Assembly (NCBI RefSeq): GCF_025755255.1
Contig: NZ_JALIEB010000019.1
Coordinates: 1 to 64,000, forward strand
Direction of reading: 5' to 3'
Length of the DNA: 64,000 bases
Origin: Roseobacter sinensis
GTDB taxonomy: Bacteria > Pseudomonadota > Alphaproteobacteria > Rhodobacterales > Rhodobacteraceae
Position numbers and translations under genes: made by a program. Under the pieces are notes generated by a model, which searched no databases, had not been told where the DNA came from, and saw only the letters and a program-made list of their open reading frames with translations. This document shows positions 27,022-33,149 of the stretch, one piece after another. The stretch's first letter is position 1, and each line of letters starts with the position of its first letter.

Positions 27022-27390
27022 CTACTTCTTCTTGCCGGCAATGGCCTTTGCGGGGCCTTTGCGGGTGCGTGCGTTGGTGTGGGTGCGCTGACCGCGAACC
27101 GGCAGGTTGCGACGGTGGCGCAGCCCGCGGTAGCAGCCGAGGTCCATCAGGCGCTTGATGTTCATCTGCACGTCACGGCGCAGGTCGCCTTCGACGGAGT
27201 AGTTCGCGTCGATATGCTCGCGGATCGACAGAACCTCTGCATCGGAGAGCTCGTTGACCCGGCGGGCCTGGTCGATGCCAACCGCTTCGCAGATGGCCTT
27301 GGCCGAGGAGTTTCCGATACCGGTGATGTAGGTAAGGGCGATGGGAACCCGCTTTGCAGTCGGGATGTTTACGCCGGCAATACGTGCCAC
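27022..27390 (-). CDS. rpsM: 30S ribosomal protein S13
   Basis: 122 residues from a GTG start: the family start [14 protein letters not shown] follows directly, and AAGGA lies about 9 nt upstream. The C terminus has [23 protein letters not shown]13 contacts the initiator tRNA and the inter-subunit bridge. It is normally preceded by adk or secY in the same operon, but here a 5-kb opposite-strand cassette intervenes, so it must use its own promoter in 27391-27700. Confidence 0.96.
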
Positions 27391-27700
27391 GTGTCCAATT
27401 CCTTTTCGTTGCGGGTCCGTAGTTCCAGACCCTTTTTTCACAACGTAAGCCCGAAGCTTTTCAGGGCGTCGGGCGTTAGCTGATCAGGTGATCTTGCATC
27501 TCGGGAGCGACCCTCAGTGCAAATTGATTCTCAGTCGAGATAGCGCGTGGTATGGGGTTTTCGCCCAAGCGTCAAGCCGATCCTGCGATGCATTTTCAGG
27601 CGGCTGGACTCCGCTGGACTCACACAGCTCATCCGATTGTGGACCACCCCATGTCGCCACGCTAGGTTGTAGTCTACAGCTTTGCCTATTAAGAGCCCCA
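27391..27700. other. Divergent intergenic region, rpsM / first paralogue
   Basis: 310 nt without a convincing ORF. It must hold the promoter for rpsM-rpsK-rpoA-rplQ (leftward) and for the first cassette gene (rightward). I cannot assign -35/-10 boxes with confidence. A 6-bp inverted repeat GCCCGA/TCGGGC lies in the rpsM leader near 27450-27475, and an imperfect Fur-like sequence lies at 27518-27533. Confidence 0.5.
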
Positions 27701-28723
27701 ATGTCGAAATTCGCTACCGACCGCAAGGCCATCGAACGCAAGTCACAGCCCGTGCGCCGATCCTCCGGCAGACACGAAAAATCCGATCCCGCTCTCGACG
27801 CCCTGCAGGCCAAAGCAGATGGCAGCCTCCTGGTCGCACAGCTTCGACACGTGCAATCCCGCGCGACCGGGGTCGTCCAACGCGAAGTCGATACCTCCTC
27901 CAGCCCGTCGCTGGGGCGCGGCGATCCAAACTATGAATACCCCCTGCCGGCCCGCGATGGCGTGCCCAAATGGGCGGCGGAGGAGTACGAAGACGCGCCC
28001 GATCGTCTGCCAATCACCGGGTCCGCGAACGACTACTATGCCACCGGCACCCTCCCCTGGGACAAGAGCGGCGATGTGACGGAGGAGACCAAGGCCGAGT
28101 TCAACGATCCCCACCTGACCCTGATGTGCAGCACCGACAACGGCAAGATCGGCAGCATCTACTTCGAAGGCGGCCGGGTGCGCACCACCCACAAGAGCGG
28201 ACCAACCACATCGAAACATCCCGCGGACCGCACCTTCCAGTACAACATTGACCGCGACGCGGCCTGGGACCGCTTCGTCAAGAGCGGCGGCAAAAGACGC
28301 ATTCTGAAAGCAGAGCGCAAGAAGCCCAAGGCGGACCGCGTCAGCGAGAACCGCCTCTTCAATCGCTGGATCGCCCAGCAGCTCAAAGGCAAGAAGGTCA
28401 AAGCCACGCCTGCATGGGCCAAACTTCTGGAGAGCCCGGACGACGCCTTCGAGACCCCCGCGGAAGCGGATGCGAGCAAGTTGAAGCTGTTCGAGGTGAT
28501 GTTGAAACCGAACACCAAAATCCAGAGCAAGCACCCCTCGCGCGGGGCGGCGACGCAGATCGTCATCAAGCGATCCGACCTGGAAAAACTGAAAGGAGTC
28601 GGACAGCTGATGTCCGGTGAAAAGGATCCGAGAACCGCGAACGAACTCTTTTACGAGTACGTGCGCAAACACATACCCGATTTGCTGAAGTTCATCAGAC
28701 ATCCATCCGAGATCAAATATTAG
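27701..28723 (+). CDS. Unrecognised family, tandem paralogue 1 (possible contractile-injection cargo)
   Basis: 340-residue soluble protein with no signal peptide or membrane helix; I do not recognise the family. The basic, disordered N terminus ends in LQAKADGSLLVAQLRHVQ (35-52) and VVQRE. A GVPKWAAEEY unit (87-96) and GTLPWDKSGDV (116-126) follow. The core shared with the next two genes contains DNGKIGSIYFEGGRVRTTH (146-164), GP (167-168), a WIAQQL segment, LFEV (263-266), HPSRG (278-282) and ELFYEYVRKHIP near the C terminus. The ATG at 27701 matches the extent of similarity to its paralogues; its ribosome-binding site is weak. Function is not known; the N-terminal tail suggests a cargo or accessory protein of an extracellular injection system. 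Confidence 0.75.
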   Translation: MSKFATDRKAIERKSQPVRRSSGRHEKSDPALDALQAKADGSLLVAQLRHVQSRATGVVQREVDTSSSPSLGRGDPNYEYPLPARDGVPKWAAEEYEDAPDRLPITGSANDYYATGTLPWDKSGDVTEETKAEFNDPHLTLMCSTDNGKIGSIYFEGGRVRTTHKSGPTTSKHPADRTFQYNIDRDAAWDRFVKSGGKRRILKAERKKPKADRVSENRLFNRWIAQQLKGKKVKATPAWAKLLESPDDAFETPAEADASKLKLFEVMLKPNTKIQSKHPSRGAATQIVIKRSDLEKLKGVGQLMSGEKDPRTANELFYEYVRKHIPDLLKFIRHPSEIKY

Positions 28724-28897
28724 GCCACCTTGAGACGTATAAGACAGCAGAGCGTTACCGTTCTGATCTCCTGCGTTGGAAAAACCGGCGCAAGGATCTC
28801 TTCCGGCGCATCATTGCGCGCGTTGGTGCACTTGCCGCGCGACTATGAATTCAATCGTGGTTAGTATTGCCAGAGTCTGAAAGGAGCACCCGTCACC

Positions 28898-29941
28898 GTG
28901 AAAACCCCGCGCGCCAGACACCATCGCACGCAAGGAGCAAGCTCCCCCACGCCCGGCGGGATGCGCAAGTCACCGCCCCGCGGCCCGCTCACCACGCTGC
29001 AGGCCAAGGCAACGGACAGCGCCGCCGTCCGGCAACTCCGCGAGATGCAGGCCCGCGCCGGTCTGCCCCTCCAGCGCGTGGATGATCCCAGCACAGCGGC
29101 CATCGATGACACCGGAACCCTCTCCTGGGACAAGAGCAAAGGGGTGCCGGGCTGGGCCAAGTACCAGTATAATCAGGACCACGCGCAGGTCGATCAGAGT
29201 TCCAGCCCCTTTCTGCCGAACTACGGGCCCGAACATGATGACCCCGGCTGGAAACACAGCCAGGGCGTGCCCGATTGGGCAAAGCAGGAATACAAGACGC
29301 AATCCAAAGTCAAACTGATCGCCAGCGTCAAGGATGGGCTCATCGGCAGCATCTACTTCCTCGATGGCCGCATTCGTACGACCCACGGGGATGGGCCAAC
29401 ACTCGAACTCGACAACCCGCGCGAGCGCACAAGCCGTTTCAATCTCGATCGCGGCAAGGCCTTTGACCTCTTCTGGAAGACGAACCGCGGGATTTACGAG
29501 TTCTTCTACGCGCAGACCGACAACTCGCTCACGCCACAACAGCGCGAGGAGCAGGCCGCGATACTGGTGGGCAAGCAATTCGACCAATGGCTGGCAGTCT
29601 ATCTCAACCTGACCCCCGTGGACCAGCTGCCCGATTGGGTCACACCCGTGACCCGTGCCGACGAGGCCTTCGACACCGACGCCGCCGACCCGTCCGACGA
29701 CATCACGCTCTTCGAGGTCTTCACCAAGGTCAGCAACGGCAAGGTCCAAAGCTGGCACCCCTCGCGCGGGATTGCCGCCAAGTTCGAGACCAACAAACAG
29801 GTGGTCTCGGTGCTTAAGGCCGCGCTGCGCCACATTGACGGCGTCACAGACGTGAACCAGCGCAACACCCTGTTCTACGACTTTATCAAAAGCCGCCTGC
29901 CCGTCTTTGCGAACCAGATCCGGCGGCCCGATCAAATCTAG
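28898..29941 (+). CDS. Unrecognised family, tandem paralogue 2
   Basis: 347 residues from a GTG start with GAAAGGAG about 11 nt upstream. Domain order matches paralogue 1: basic Pro-rich tail, LQAKATDSAAVRQLREMQ (34-51), LQR, GTLSWDKSKGV (73-83), two GVPxWA units (82-87 and 123-128), DGLIGSIYFLDGRIRTTH (146-163), GP (166-167), WLAVYL, ADEAFDTDAAD, LFEVF (271-275), HPSRG (287-291) and a C-terminal NTLFYDFIKSRLP then IRRPDQI. Identity to paralogue 1 is clear by eye in these blocks and low between them. No signal peptide or membrane helix is seen. The gene lies 174 nt after paralogue 1, so it may have its own promoter. Confidence 0.75.
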   Translation: MKTPRARHHRTQGASSPTPGGMRKSPPRGPLTTLQAKATDSAAVRQLREMQARAGLPLQRVDDPSTAAIDDTGTLSWDKSKGVPGWAKYQYNQDHAQVDQSSSPFLPNYGPEHDDPGWKHSQGVPDWAKQEYKTQSKVKLIASVKDGLIGSIYFLDGRIRTTHGDGPTLELDNPRERTSRFNLDRGKAFDLFWKTNRGIYEFFYAQTDNSLTPQQREEQAAILVGKQFDQWLAVYLNLTPVDQLPDWVTPVTRADEAFDTDAADPSDDITLFEVFTKVSNGKVQSWHPSRGIAAKFETNKQVVSVLKAALRHIDGVTDVNQRNTLFYDFIKSRLPVFANQIRRPDQI

Positions 29942-30061
29942 CCCCACTGCAATCAGCACTTTGGGCGCGCAACCGCCGACGCAGGAAAGCGACTGGAGGG
30001 TGAATTCAGCCTCCGATATGTCTCGCGCACCAGCCCTCGATCTCAACAGGAACCGCCTGGT

Positions 30062-31249
30062 TTGAAAGCTCCGATCACGCAACGCGCCATGGCCTCTGGC
30101 GCCGACAGGCGGTACAGCCGCGCCCGCGCCAAGCGCACACGCGCGGATGATGCTCTGGCCGCGCTGCAACAGCGCGCCGACCACAGCCAGCCGGTGCGGC
30201 AGCTCCAAGCCCTGCAACGCCAGCAGGCGCCCGTCCTGCAAGCCGCAAACGGCGACACCGATACCGAGACGGAACTGCCAGCGAACGTCCCGGTCATGGT
30301 CAGCGTCGAAAACGGCAAGATCGGCAGCATCTACTTTGATGACGGGCGCATCCGCGGCACCCACCTGGACGGTCCGGCAGATGAACGCGGTAACCATGCC
30401 TTGATCGAGCGGTACAACATCGACATGCGCAGGGCGCACCGCTCCTATTCCGCAGCGGTGAAGGCCGGCACCCACAAAAAACTGAAATTCGACGAATGGA
30501 TCTCGGTCCAGCTCTGGAACCGCGATCCGACTTGGGTGATCAAGGAACTCCCCGCGCCCGCCGACATGGAAGAGGGTCCAGCCGACAGGAACGCCACCCT
30601 GTTCGAGAACTTCGGCAACTCCGATGGAAACTACGCAGGCTACCATCCGTCCCGTGGCGCAGGGGAGAAGAAGATGCTGCTGCGAAGCGACGTCGATAGC
30701 CTCGAGAAGGCGGCCGAAGCCGCGGCCGCCGTTGACGAGACCGCCAAGAAGAACCGCGCCTTCTACGTCGAACTGATGACGAATGCGCCGGAGCTTGCCC
30801 CCCAAATGCGCATGCCCGAAGAGATCGACGCCGAGACGGCAGAAGAGGCGTTGACCTACGCCCAAAAGGAATACGAAAAAATCGAGTACTGGACAGAGCA
30901 GGACTGGTCGACAGGCCCCTATGACGATCTCTTTGTCCTCAGCCACAAACTCCGGGAGTATCGCCAGCGGATCGTGGACGCTGGCGACGACGCGCGCGGG
31001 GCCCTCGCATACACCCGCGACCACGACTACCGCTCCAAACTGACGATCAAAGTCGGCTATGAAGTCCGCGCAAAACACGCTACCGCCCGCGCGCTCGCGG
31101 CCTCCAACGCCCTCGACGCCCTCCAACCCGTGGCGAGCAAGACCGTGGCCGACTTCTTCCGCACCTACGCCGACGCCATAAAGGTGGCGGAAGACTACGC
31201 CGCGATCATGCAGAACACCGAGGGCGCGGCGGACGCCGAGGGCGAGTGA
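30062..31249 (+). CDS. Unrecognised family, tandem paralogue 3 with C-terminal extension
   Basis: 395 residues from a TTG start (MKAP, like MKTP of paralogue 2; AGGAA lies about 9 nt upstream); an ATG at 30089 is the alternative. It keeps the N-terminal LQQRADHSQPVRQLQALQ (35-52) and VLQ, NGKIGSIYFDDGRIRGTH (84-101), GP (104-105), LFENF (180-184), HPSRG (195-199) and NRAFYVELMTNAPELAPQMRMPEEI (231-255; first part RAFYVELM). It lacks the WDKS and GVPxWA blocks. A new Ala/Glu-rich, probably helical region of about 140 residues follows (256-395), suggesting a changed C-terminal activity or partner. Function unknown. Confidence 0.75.
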   Translation: MKAPITQRAMASGADRRYSRARAKRTRADDALAALQQRADHSQPVRQLQALQRQQAPVLQAANGDTDTETELPANVPVMVSVENGKIGSIYFDDGRIRGTHLDGPADERGNHALIERYNIDMRRAHRSYSAAVKAGTHKKLKFDEWISVQLWNRDPTWVIKELPAPADMEEGPADRNATLFENFGNSDGNYAGYHPSRGAGEKKMLLRSDVDSLEKAAEAAAAVDETAKKNRAFYVELMTNAPELAPQMRMPEEIDAETAEEALTYAQKEYEKIEYWTEQDWSTGPYDDLFVLSHKLREYRQRIVDAGDDARGALAYTRDHDYRSKLTIKVGYEVRAKHATARALAASNALDALQPVASKTVADFFRTYADAIKVAEDYAAIMQNTEGAADAEGE

Positions 31250-31502
31250 CGAGCGTTCCCGCTTGCCGTCGGGCCGCGGGTCGCGCTTATGGTCGGGCCT
31301 GCGGCCCGGGAGACCGGCTACCCCGCCACGCGCCTGACGCTCTCAAAGTGCTAAAAATTTAATCAAATGCCCCGTTTCAGCCGCACTCCTCACAAAAATG
31401 CTGCGCTGCAGCACGATTGTGCAGGGAGTTGTTAACCATTTTTAGGTAGAACATTTAGCTAACGCGACCGTGGGAGGAGGCCGCTCTGAAAGGAGAAGGC
31501 AG

Positions 31503-32495
31503 ATGAACACGACAACCGACCTTATGTTTGTACGCCGCCCGATGCGGTGGCTCATGTCCCTGATGCTGATTGGGCTGATCACGTTGCTCCCCGCCGATAG
31601 CGGCGCCCAGGATCGCCTGACGCCGCGCTATGCCTCCGGGCAAGTAAATATCCACAATCCGAACCGGGTCGATGTGGCCCTGGTGCTCGCGGTGGATGTC
31701 TCGTCCTCGGTGAAATCGCACGAGCGCCGCTTTCAGCGCGAAGCCTACGCTGCGGCTTTGCAAGATCCGCGCGTCGCCGGCCTTGCCCTGGGTGGTGGCG
31801 CGGGACGCGTTGCCATCGCCTACATGGAATGGAGCGGCCGCCATTACCAACGGCTGCATTTGCCCATCCGGGTCATGTCGACGCCCGAGGAGTTGGCGCG
31901 CTTCGCCGCGGACATCCTCGCCATCGAGGATCGGTCGGCCGACCCCATGTACGTGCAACCCACCGCCATCGGTAACGCGCTGCTGGCCGCGGAACGGGCG
32001 ATGGCCGCACTCGAGGTGCCCGCCCGCGACTACGTCATCGACATCTCGGGGGACGGGGTGCTCAACGACGGGACCGGAATTCTCGCCGTCCGGCAGCAGC
32101 TTCTTGCCATGGGGCTCACCGTAAACGGGCTGCCGATCGAGGTCACCTACGGCGAACCCAACATCGATCAGCTCTCGTTCGACCGCGTTTCGCGATACTA
32201 TGAAGACTGCGTGATTGGCGGGCCCGGCGCCTTCCATCTCGTCGCGCGGGGATTCAGCGACGTCCGGGAAACGCTGATCATGAAGCTGATGCTGGAAATG
32301 GCGCAGATGAGGCCCGAAGAAAAGTCACGCATTGCGCTGGCCTGGAATCGCAGCGATGCCCCGCTCGAGGCTCAAATCCTGCCCGCAACCATGCTGCAAC
32401 TTGCGCCGAACGGCGCTGCAAAGCCGCAACGCCAGCCAACCGACTGCGGCGAGACCCGCGTGAGTTCATCGAACCCGTTCCAGATCATCCCCTGA
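31503..32495 (+). CDS. DUF1194 protein, von Willebrand A-like
   Basis: 330 residues. An N-terminal hydrophobic stretch (WLMSLMLIGLITLLP) is a signal peptide or anchor. The vWA-like domain shows a MIDAS-type metal motif DVSSS (65-69), then a conserved ISGDGVLNDG segment and VNGLPIEV, as in DUF1194 proteins of roseobacters. It would lie in the periplasm and bind a divalent metal; no function is established. Start ATG 31503 has GAAAGGAGAAGG upstream. The 253 nt before it include an AT-rich stretch that probably holds its promoter. Confidence 0.85.
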   Translation: MNTTTDLMFVRRPMRWLMSLMLIGLITLLPADSGAQDRLTPRYASGQVNIHNPNRVDVALVLAVDVSSSVKSHERRFQREAYAAALQDPRVAGLALGGGAGRVAIAYMEWSGRHYQRLHLPIRVMSTPEELARFAADILAIEDRSADPMYVQPTAIGNALLAAERAMAALEVPARDYVIDISGDGVLNDGTGILAVRQQLLAMGLTVNGLPIEVTYGEPNIDQLSFDRVSRYYEDCVIGGPGAFHLVARGFSDVRETLIMKLMLEMAQMRPEEKSRIALAWNRSDAPLEAQILPATMLQLAPNGAAKPQRQPTDCGETRVSSSNPFQIIP

Positions 32496-32509
32496 CAAGA
32501 GCCGTCAGG
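32491..32509. terminator. Hairpin over convergent stops of DUF1194 gene and adk
   Basis: CCTGAC/GTCAGG stem with a 7-nt loop. It overlaps both stop codons of two convergent genes. There is no T-tract on either strand, so at most it is a weak bidirectional terminator. Confidence 0.35.
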
Positions 32510-33149
32510 CGTCGAGCACGGCGCTGATCTCGCCCTGCACCGCGTCAATCGCACCGAGCCCATCGACGCGGCTCAACATGTCCTTGGCATAGTAGTAGCC
32601 AATGAGCGGCGAGGTCTGCTTGTAGTATTCCATCAGGCGGGTCTTGAGGCTGTCCTCATTGTCGTCCGCCCGGCGCTTGAATTCTGTGCCGCCGCAGTTG
32701 CTGCATTTGCCGTCCGCGGGGATCGGCTTGGTGTTGTCGTTATAGACCTCGCCGCACATGGCACAGGTCGACCGGGCCACGATCCGCGCCACAAGGGCTG
32801 CGTCATCCACACGCATCTCGATCACCGCATCGAGGTGTTCGTTCTGGCTCTCCAGGAGGTCCCCCAGCGCATCCGCCTGCGCCAGTGTGCGCGGGAAACC
32901 GTCGAAAATGAAGCCATTCGCCTTCACGGTTTCCAGCTTCTCTCGGATCAGCCCGATCACGATCTCGTCCGTGACCAGCGCCCCGCGCGCCATCACGTCC
33001 GCGACGATCTTGCCCATCTCGGTGCCAGAGTCTTTAGCCTCGCGCAACATGTCGCCGGTACTCAACTGCACCATCCCACGTGTCTCAACGAGGTGACGCG
33101 CCTGCGTCCCCTTCCCGGCCCCCGGAGGCCCCAGCAGTATGATATTCAT
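32505..33149 (-). CDS. adk: Adenylate kinase
   Basis: 214 residues. The P-loop [12 protein letters not shown]-binding [17 protein letters not shown] and the LID domain are present. The LID carries CAMC and CSNC pairs, a structural zinc site. The enzyme interconverts ATP plus AMP and two ADP. Its start overlaps the secY stop by 4 nt. Confidence 0.97.

Follow-up and report, generated by a model that had tools for sequence, protein, structure and literature searches.

The stretch of DNA analysed here (the window, 64,000 nucleotides of the Roseobacter sinensis contig NZ_JALIEB010000019.1) contains three tandem paralogous genes, whose products we read as candidate effectors of an extracellular contractile injection system (eCIS). 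All three are located between rpsM (27022-27441, minus strand) and adk (32505-33149, minus strand), and run antiparallel to the ribosomal protein operon; the names rpsM and adk, as well as rpoA and secY below, are presumptive and were given by recognising the translations, without a search. Paralogue 1 (P0001, 340 aa, ATG start; 27701..28723) is composed of an N-terminal tag, a linker and a C-terminal core, and is the most divergent copy. Its tag (DPALDALQAKADGSLLVAQLRHVQSRATGVVQR) occupies 27785..27886, its core (residues 138-338) 28112..28714. Paralogue 2 (P0002, 347 aa, GTG start; 28898..29941) has its tag at 28982..29083 and a core of predicted mixed alpha/beta type (residues 137-347) at 29306..29938. 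Paralogue 3 (P0003, 395 aa, TTG start; 30062..31249) has its tag at 30146..30244 and its core (residues 75-255) at 30284..30826, followed by a helical C-terminal extension of ~140 residues (30827..31246) that is found only in this copy and in its counterpart at L023, a homologous locus. All of these features are on the plus strand.

An earlier note on this DNA had described three same-strand homologous genes with a common block order and strong divergence outside the core blocks. The open frames and a search of the own genome with P0001 confirm this homology (P0002 at E 8.2e-38, core of P0003 at 5.1e-18), and the three-protein alignment reproduces both the block order and the divergence. The P0001 search reveals no further paralogue in the genome, its sole other row being the N-terminus of P0003 (E 3). 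The alignment has 51 invariant columns for the three paralogues and 45 for nine family members, and the core follows the layout GxIGS(I/V)YFxxGRxRxTH ... LFE ... HPSRG. The invariant polar residues (R159, R161, T163, H164, N182, E265, H278, S280 and R281 in P0001 numbering), including those of R-x-R-x-T-H, the E of LFE and those of H-P-S-R-G, are the best candidates for an active site. Copy 2 additionally has a duplicated W(D/K)xSxGVPxWA linker. A scan for promoters and terminators finds nothing that exceeds shuffled sequences. We also observe an open frame of 718 aa antisense to copies 2 and 3 (28970-31126, minus strand), which is probably a high-GC shadow frame because the antisense frames at L023 are split differently.

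The shared N-terminal tag spans ~33 residues (ALxxLQxxADxSxxVxQLxxxQ...QR). The same region had been noted earlier as a basic disordered tail with a glutamine-ended motif; such a region is indeed present, but its conserved tag, related to that of eCIS_core (DUF4157) proteins, had been missed. The first 50 residues have a GRAVY (grand average of hydropathy) of -0.89 to -1.03, an isoelectric point of 10.5-12 and an aromaticity of 0-0.02. Composition, low model confidence and the relation of the tag together correspond to an eCIS-type N-terminal signal, i.e. disordered, polar, basic and with few aromatic residues. Such features are used for eCIS signal peptides (PMC11297309).

That the tag also occurs at the N-terminus of eCIS_core proteins follows from reciprocal, non-circular searches with hidden Markov models (HMMs). 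A first profile, A5, has 12 rows and was run on seven genomes, many of the matched sequences being rows of the profile, among them the tags of paralogues 1, 2 and 3 (E 2.5e-14, 2.1e-15 and 2.3e-11, respectively). It returns 32 rows at E <= 1, and the 21 at E <= 1e-3 consist of nine family members, six eCIS_core proteins and six other proteins. For the non-circular test, an HMM of seven family tags and an HMM of six eCIS_core tags were run separately on 4,895 distinct six-frame open reading frames (ORFs) from the window and the collected loci, the latter partly picked by tag searches. The first non-family matches of the family-tag HMM are the eCIS_core proteins of G777, G776, G775 and G119 (E 1.9e-6, 9.0e-6, 2.7e-5 and 4.6e-5), followed by those of G774 and G001 (E 0.008 and 0.015). 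Conversely, the first matches of the eCIS_core-tag HMM outside eCIS_core are the family (copy 2 at 5.2e-8, copy 3 at 3.5e-4, copy 1 at 0.006). Against this test stands a frame of genome G048 (L114), which scores 6.3e-5 with the eCIS_core HMM; it had been picked as a best match from 394 genomes and is likely a shadow frame. Other likely noise starts near E 0.005. Across genomes of the same taxonomic family, the tag is detected at E <= 1e-3 in 4 of 50 eCIS_core-positive versus 1 of 344 negative genomes (Fisher p 0.001), or 2 of 48 versus 1 of 344 (p 0.04) once the two genomes contributing tag rows are set aside. Two of the five tag-positive genomes, G048 and G096 (a frame of 21 residues), look like non-genes, and the test is weak because only G001 remains a convincing new genome.

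The tag is also found on other proteins. Profile A5 detects six tagged ORFs in the own genome at E <= 1e-3, of which the window trio, a protein on contig C51 and a protein on contig C16 supplied rows. The sixth, C49:309134 (minus strand, ~440 residues), scores 4.2e-4 and 2.1e-5 in the two HMMs of the non-circular test and is a row in neither. The C16 protein (175 residues) is weak in this test (0.36 and 0.31); it is strong in the A5 search only because it was a row of that profile. Further tagged proteins are encoded in a ~510-residue frame common to G775 and G777, in another common to G774 and G776, and in G001 (C7), with weaker cases in G119 and G777; the weaker protein of G777 has a phosphodiester glycosidase domain (PF09992, E 5.4e-10). 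When 16 proteins are compared downstream of the tag, similarity at E <= 0.01 is confined to the family, the G775/G777 and G774/G776 pairs and eCIS_core. Judged by this lack of similarity behind it, the tag is a module heading unrelated C-termini.

Several of the tagged or eCIS_core proteins deserve mention in their own right. Loci L098 (1417-2838) and L097 of G775 and G777 encode a tagged protein of ~475 aa, whose G775 copy matches nothing in Pfam and reaches at best E 0.13 against PDB sequences; by its FRG...SPYLSFE segments it may resemble ADP-ribosyltransferases. The own genome encodes an eCIS_core protein of 954 aa (G000:C49:299753-299950; L009:9502-12366) with a long unannotated C-terminus, ~9 kb from C49:309134. 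A second eCIS_core protein, of 902 aa and with a tag-like N-terminus, lies on C51 (L010, 4790 bp) and is adjoined by an ORF that by eye is integrase-like; this neighbour and the very small contig point to surroundings that are mobile or bounded by repeats. Plasmid pDSHI02 of Dinoroseobacter shibae (L116, 46686-48080) encodes a DUF4157 protein of 464 aa, whose N-terminus is tag-like by eye.

The family itself has no credible match in Pfam, NCBIfam, PHROGs or PADLOC. The three window proteins have no Pfam match at E <= 10 and no NCBIfam match at E <= 1, a profile search of PDB sequences gives 0 matches at E <= 10, and PF13699, the eCIS_core domain, is not among the matches of the nine members at E <= 1. 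A few individual members have weak PHROGs and Pfam matches (E 0.02-0.16), which are probably fortuitous. The view that this is an unnamed family is hence upheld, and the proposed profile search matched no known family in the sequence databases. A titles-level look at the literature on contractile injection in Roseobacter and Rhodobacteraceae, in which the tag letters were not searched, turned up no publication describing a cargo family of this kind.

The three-protein profile matches 3 of 394 genomes of the taxonomic family at E <= 0.01, and the core is found in one of them, the window's own; in G119 and G249 the match is limited to the N-terminal part and, in G249, crosses two stops. With the nine-member profile, 1 of 385 class genomes and 1 of 398 phylum genomes match, both being the own genome (the two samples overlap). 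The core is very rare: a scan of 84,980 species genomes for its pattern yields four further carriers among 83 candidate stretches, all of the Roseobacter type, and each of the four carries its gene or genes in the rpsM-adk interval. Relatives were found neither in viral contigs (profile search) nor in plasmids (P0001 as the only query) nor in phages (P0002 as the only query). Locus L023 has three copies, whereas L024, L025 and L026 have one each (312 aa, mutual identity 94-95%). The tandem triplication noted earlier therefore holds for the window and L023, but not for three relatives with a single copy at the same site.

Within the core, the window and L023 are 75% identical for copy 2, 85% for copy 3 and 36% for copy 1, and copy 1 reaches at most 36% with any relative outside the own genome. 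Copy 2 looks closest to the single-copy form because of the core identities (64% to the single copies). In a tree, copy 1 is on a very long branch, and its orthology to copy 1 of L023 is unsettled (approximately unbiased test, p 0.086). The dN/dS ratios relative to L023 (NG86) are 0.21 for copy 2, 0.36 for copy 3 and 0.60 for copy 1 (dS 1.05, orthology unsure); among the single copies they are 0.18-0.21. The neighbours have ratios of 0.015 (rpoA), 0.034 (secY), 0.068 (adk) and 0.14 (a DUF1194 gene). Copies 2 and 3 are under purifying selection relative to L023, and the reading frames are intact there also; the three genes are maintained, yet evolve much faster than their ribosomal neighbours.

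These data bear on the possibility that the genes encode chromosomal regulators or ribosome-associated factors with a housekeeping role in the ribosomal operon. The constant rpsM-adk site in all five genomes would fit such a role, but the genes are on the opposite strand, their core is not found in 393 of 394 genomes of the taxonomic family, their dN/dS of 0.2-0.6 contrasts with 0.015-0.068 for rpoA, secY and adk, and their tag is common to eCIS_core proteins. We consider this explanation hardly credible, in line with the earlier expectation of a non-housekeeping function. Alternatively, the own genome might have lost its eCIS, and the genes would then be cargo genes in decay. The extreme divergence of copy 1 and the failure to detect a machine in the own genome (see below) point that way; all three frames are intact, however, and copies 2 and 3 show the purifying selection described above, so that we regard decay as rather improbable.

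An association with eCIS is indicated by the gene content of the relatives. In all four relatives with the family (G774-G777), an eCIS_core gene and two tail-tube copies are found on one contig, and the eCIS_core gene, which carries the tag, is situated ~8 kb upstream of the tubes (across contig ends in G777). As a baseline, eCIS_core is present in 50 of 394 genomes of the taxonomic family; G266, of the same genus, has neither the family nor eCIS_core. The operon of G774 consists of the tagged eCIS_core gene, Pvc16_N, sheath, two tubes, CIS_tube, spike (Phage_base_V), PAAR, gp25, tape measure (CIS_TMP) and an AAA ATPase, and looks almost complete as annotated; its sheath has cadherin-like inserts (PF17482, E 8.8e-11). 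In G775, parts of the operon are annotated and a ParA-like gene is found beside the eCIS. The eCIS contigs of G775 (C8; L078/L079) and G777 (C6; L080/L081) measure 85,355 and 85,347 bp and look like one circular, plasmid-like type of molecule cut at different points; the sheath of this eCIS, too, has cadherin-like inserts.

Taken together, we propose that the three genes encode effectors loaded by an eCIS, with a new C-terminal domain and encoded far from the machine, and we put the probability of this proposal at roughly two in three. The effector or toxin role considered in the earlier note gains indirect support from the tag common to eCIS_core and from the eCIS genes of the four relatives, while nothing observed speaks for the immunity or recognition functions it also named.

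A number of observations weigh against the proposal. In the own genome (G000, 77 contigs, 99.6% complete), neither the tail tube (PF06841, no candidate in a first-look search) nor the sheath (PF04984, E <= 1) was found; the searches for a machine covered these two families, the weaker one being that for the sheath, since the sheath proteins of the relatives (27.7 and 29.5 bits) do not reach the Pfam cut-off. The genome does encode two eCIS_core proteins and at least one tagged protein besides the window trio; its machine may be on a plasmid outside the assembly or may have disappeared, or the cargo may depend on a different route. In G774, G775, G776 and G777 the family genes are on other contigs than the eCIS, and in none of these genomes within about ten genes of the operon. 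Such proximity applies to 88% of training-set eCIS toxins, a frequent trait and no requirement (PMC11297309). The link between family and eCIS is one-sided because G119 holds tubes and a tagged eCIS_core protein but no family, and the five genomes with the family are close relatives rather than independent cases. The three proteins themselves are without DUF4157, and the Pfam, NCBIfam, PDB-sequence and fold searches brought to light neither a toxin fold nor a catalytic motif. As to the tag, the family-tag HMM misses the eCIS_core tags of the own C51 and of D. shibae at E <= 1; with the eCIS_core-tag HMM, copy 1 scores close to noise (E 0.006). Finally, the D. shibae locus has no annotated eCIS gene within 20 kb in a gene table that is incomplete.

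Part of this evidence would also suit a different explanation, in which the tag is a sorting signal of another export or surface system that uses eCIS_core/DUF4157 proteins, its joint occurrence with eCIS stems from common descent of the tag, and the cargo of the own genome takes another route. The six tagged ORFs and the second eCIS_core protein of a genome in which tube and sheath were not found agree with it, as does the tag-like N-terminus of the D. shibae plasmid protein; moreover, DUF4157 also occurs in some effectors of type VI secretion systems (PMC11297309). Conversely, the tagged eCIS_core gene keeps its position ~8 kb upstream of the tubes in four of four relatives, and DUF4157 is above all a marker of eCIS (PMC8213781). 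We judge this explanation unlikely and retain the eCIS effector proposal.

Predicted structures offer no confident assignment. The models of copies 2 and 3 (mean pLDDT, predicted local distance difference test, 62.3 and 63.8) both have a low-confidence N-terminus, in which the tag forms short helices, and a mixed alpha/beta core with the order four/five strands, two/three helices, three strands, then helices. The earlier note had suggested a comparison of models; the two are alike in strand and helix order, a likeness that is not independent as both were built from the same nine rows, and neither has a confident fold match. In the P0002 model, pLDDT is <50 at residues 1-37 and 52-125, and averages over ten-residue blocks are 84-95 at 181-250, 46-66 at 251-300 and 81-94 at 301-347. 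At E <= 0.001, Foldseek finds no match in the PDB for P0002 and P0003 and none in BFVD for P0002; the best VIA Z of P0002 is 4.6 (rmsd, root-mean-square deviation, 4.8; 52 aligned). Matches of P0003 are mostly driven by its helical extension. An Ntn-hydrolase-like fold was considered for P0002 and set aside as unproven. It rests on weak matches to proteasome or HslV chains (6 of the 7 best Foldseek matches; E 0.64-3.0, probability <=0.07, template modelling score <=0.18 to the query); the strand and helix order also seemed compatible with this fold.

Loading, delivery, toxicity and enzyme activity, which we infer, would proceed as follows. The basic, aromatic-poor N-terminus with its ALxxLQxxADxSxxVxQL tag would act as loading signal and would be read by the eCIS loading machinery, i.e. 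the AAA ATPase, the small eCIS_core protein that carries the tag, or both. The protein would then be packed into the inner tube and released into a target cell upon contraction, where the C-terminal core, putatively an enzyme with an unrecognised fold, would act. At the level of the locus, one ancestral rpsM-adk gene may have given rise to several copies in the lineage leading to the window and L023, the copies having diverged thereafter.

Polymorphic toxin loci often contain divergent paralogues in tandem, and the arrangement could accordingly be taken for an antibacterial toxin-immunity or an anti-phage module. However, PADLOC returns 0 families for the nine members at E <= 1, and the three gaps (with 60 bases added on either side) contain only ORFs of 25-44 aa; compared by eye, no immunity-like ORF of at least 25 aa with an evident counterpart at L023 is found inside the gaps. 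A module of this kind appears very improbable. For the proposed eCIS effectors, a eukaryotic target would be likelier than a bacterial one with local immunity, since no small ORF in the gaps has an evident L023 counterpart.

The rpsM-adk insert is closed, in the window and at L023, by the DUF1194 gene (31470..32495, plus strand; PF06707, E 1.6e-53). It is 80% identical between the two loci, accompanies the island where three copies are present, and is without a match in the single-copy loci L024, L025 and L026. The gene is a component of the island and a candidate only for membership of the system.

The proposed effectors resemble eCIS-associated toxins and the AlgoCIS proteins Cgo1 and Cgo2 in having a disordered basic N-terminus and a variable C-terminal effector part (PMC8213781, PMC11297309, PMC8894135), and their relatives hold an eCIS_core gene and an eCIS operon. 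Cgo1 and Cgo2 share a disordered N-terminus and DUF4157, differ in their C-termini and fill the tube (PMC8894135). The proteins described here, in contrast, are without DUF4157, are encoded on a contig other than that of the operon, carry a conserved sequence tag beyond physico-chemical features and have no known toxin domain, their cargo status being predicted. As in PVC/Afp, where Pvc15 reads signal peptides, a putative N-terminal signal precedes unrelated payloads and an AAA ATPase is present in the G774 operon; the G774 ATPase (453 aa) differs in matching one AAA domain, whereas Pvc15 is described with D1 and D2 (PMC11495950). With eCIS_core proteins (DUF4157, PF13699) the family shares the related tag, but not the eCIS_core domain and its HExxH motif. 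The analogy to Cgo1/Cgo2 and to the signal peptides associated with Pvc15 is the reason for reading the genes as effectors in trans.

The strongest new element is the conserved tag common to cargo in trans and an eCIS_core protein. In a wider form, which we advance tentatively and with the odds somewhat against it, the tag would be a portable, sequence-defined eCIS loading signal on eCIS_core and on unrelated, scattered effectors that form a polymorphic network in trans to the injector, and the window strain would keep cargo without a detectable injector, its plasmid being lost or unassembled, or the machines of kin being used. In the sources cited here, eCIS cargo is found by operon proximity, the DUF4157 domain or N-terminal composition. 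If the proposal is true, a short conserved tag would allow cargo to be found genome-wide from sequence, would expose several effector candidates without a described family, and would give the eCIS_core protein a testable function as a loading partner with the same tag. Independently of this condition, Roseobacter-type bacteria are seen to have an eCIS on a plasmid-like contig of ~85 kb and the proposed cargo genes within the chromosomal ribosomal operon.

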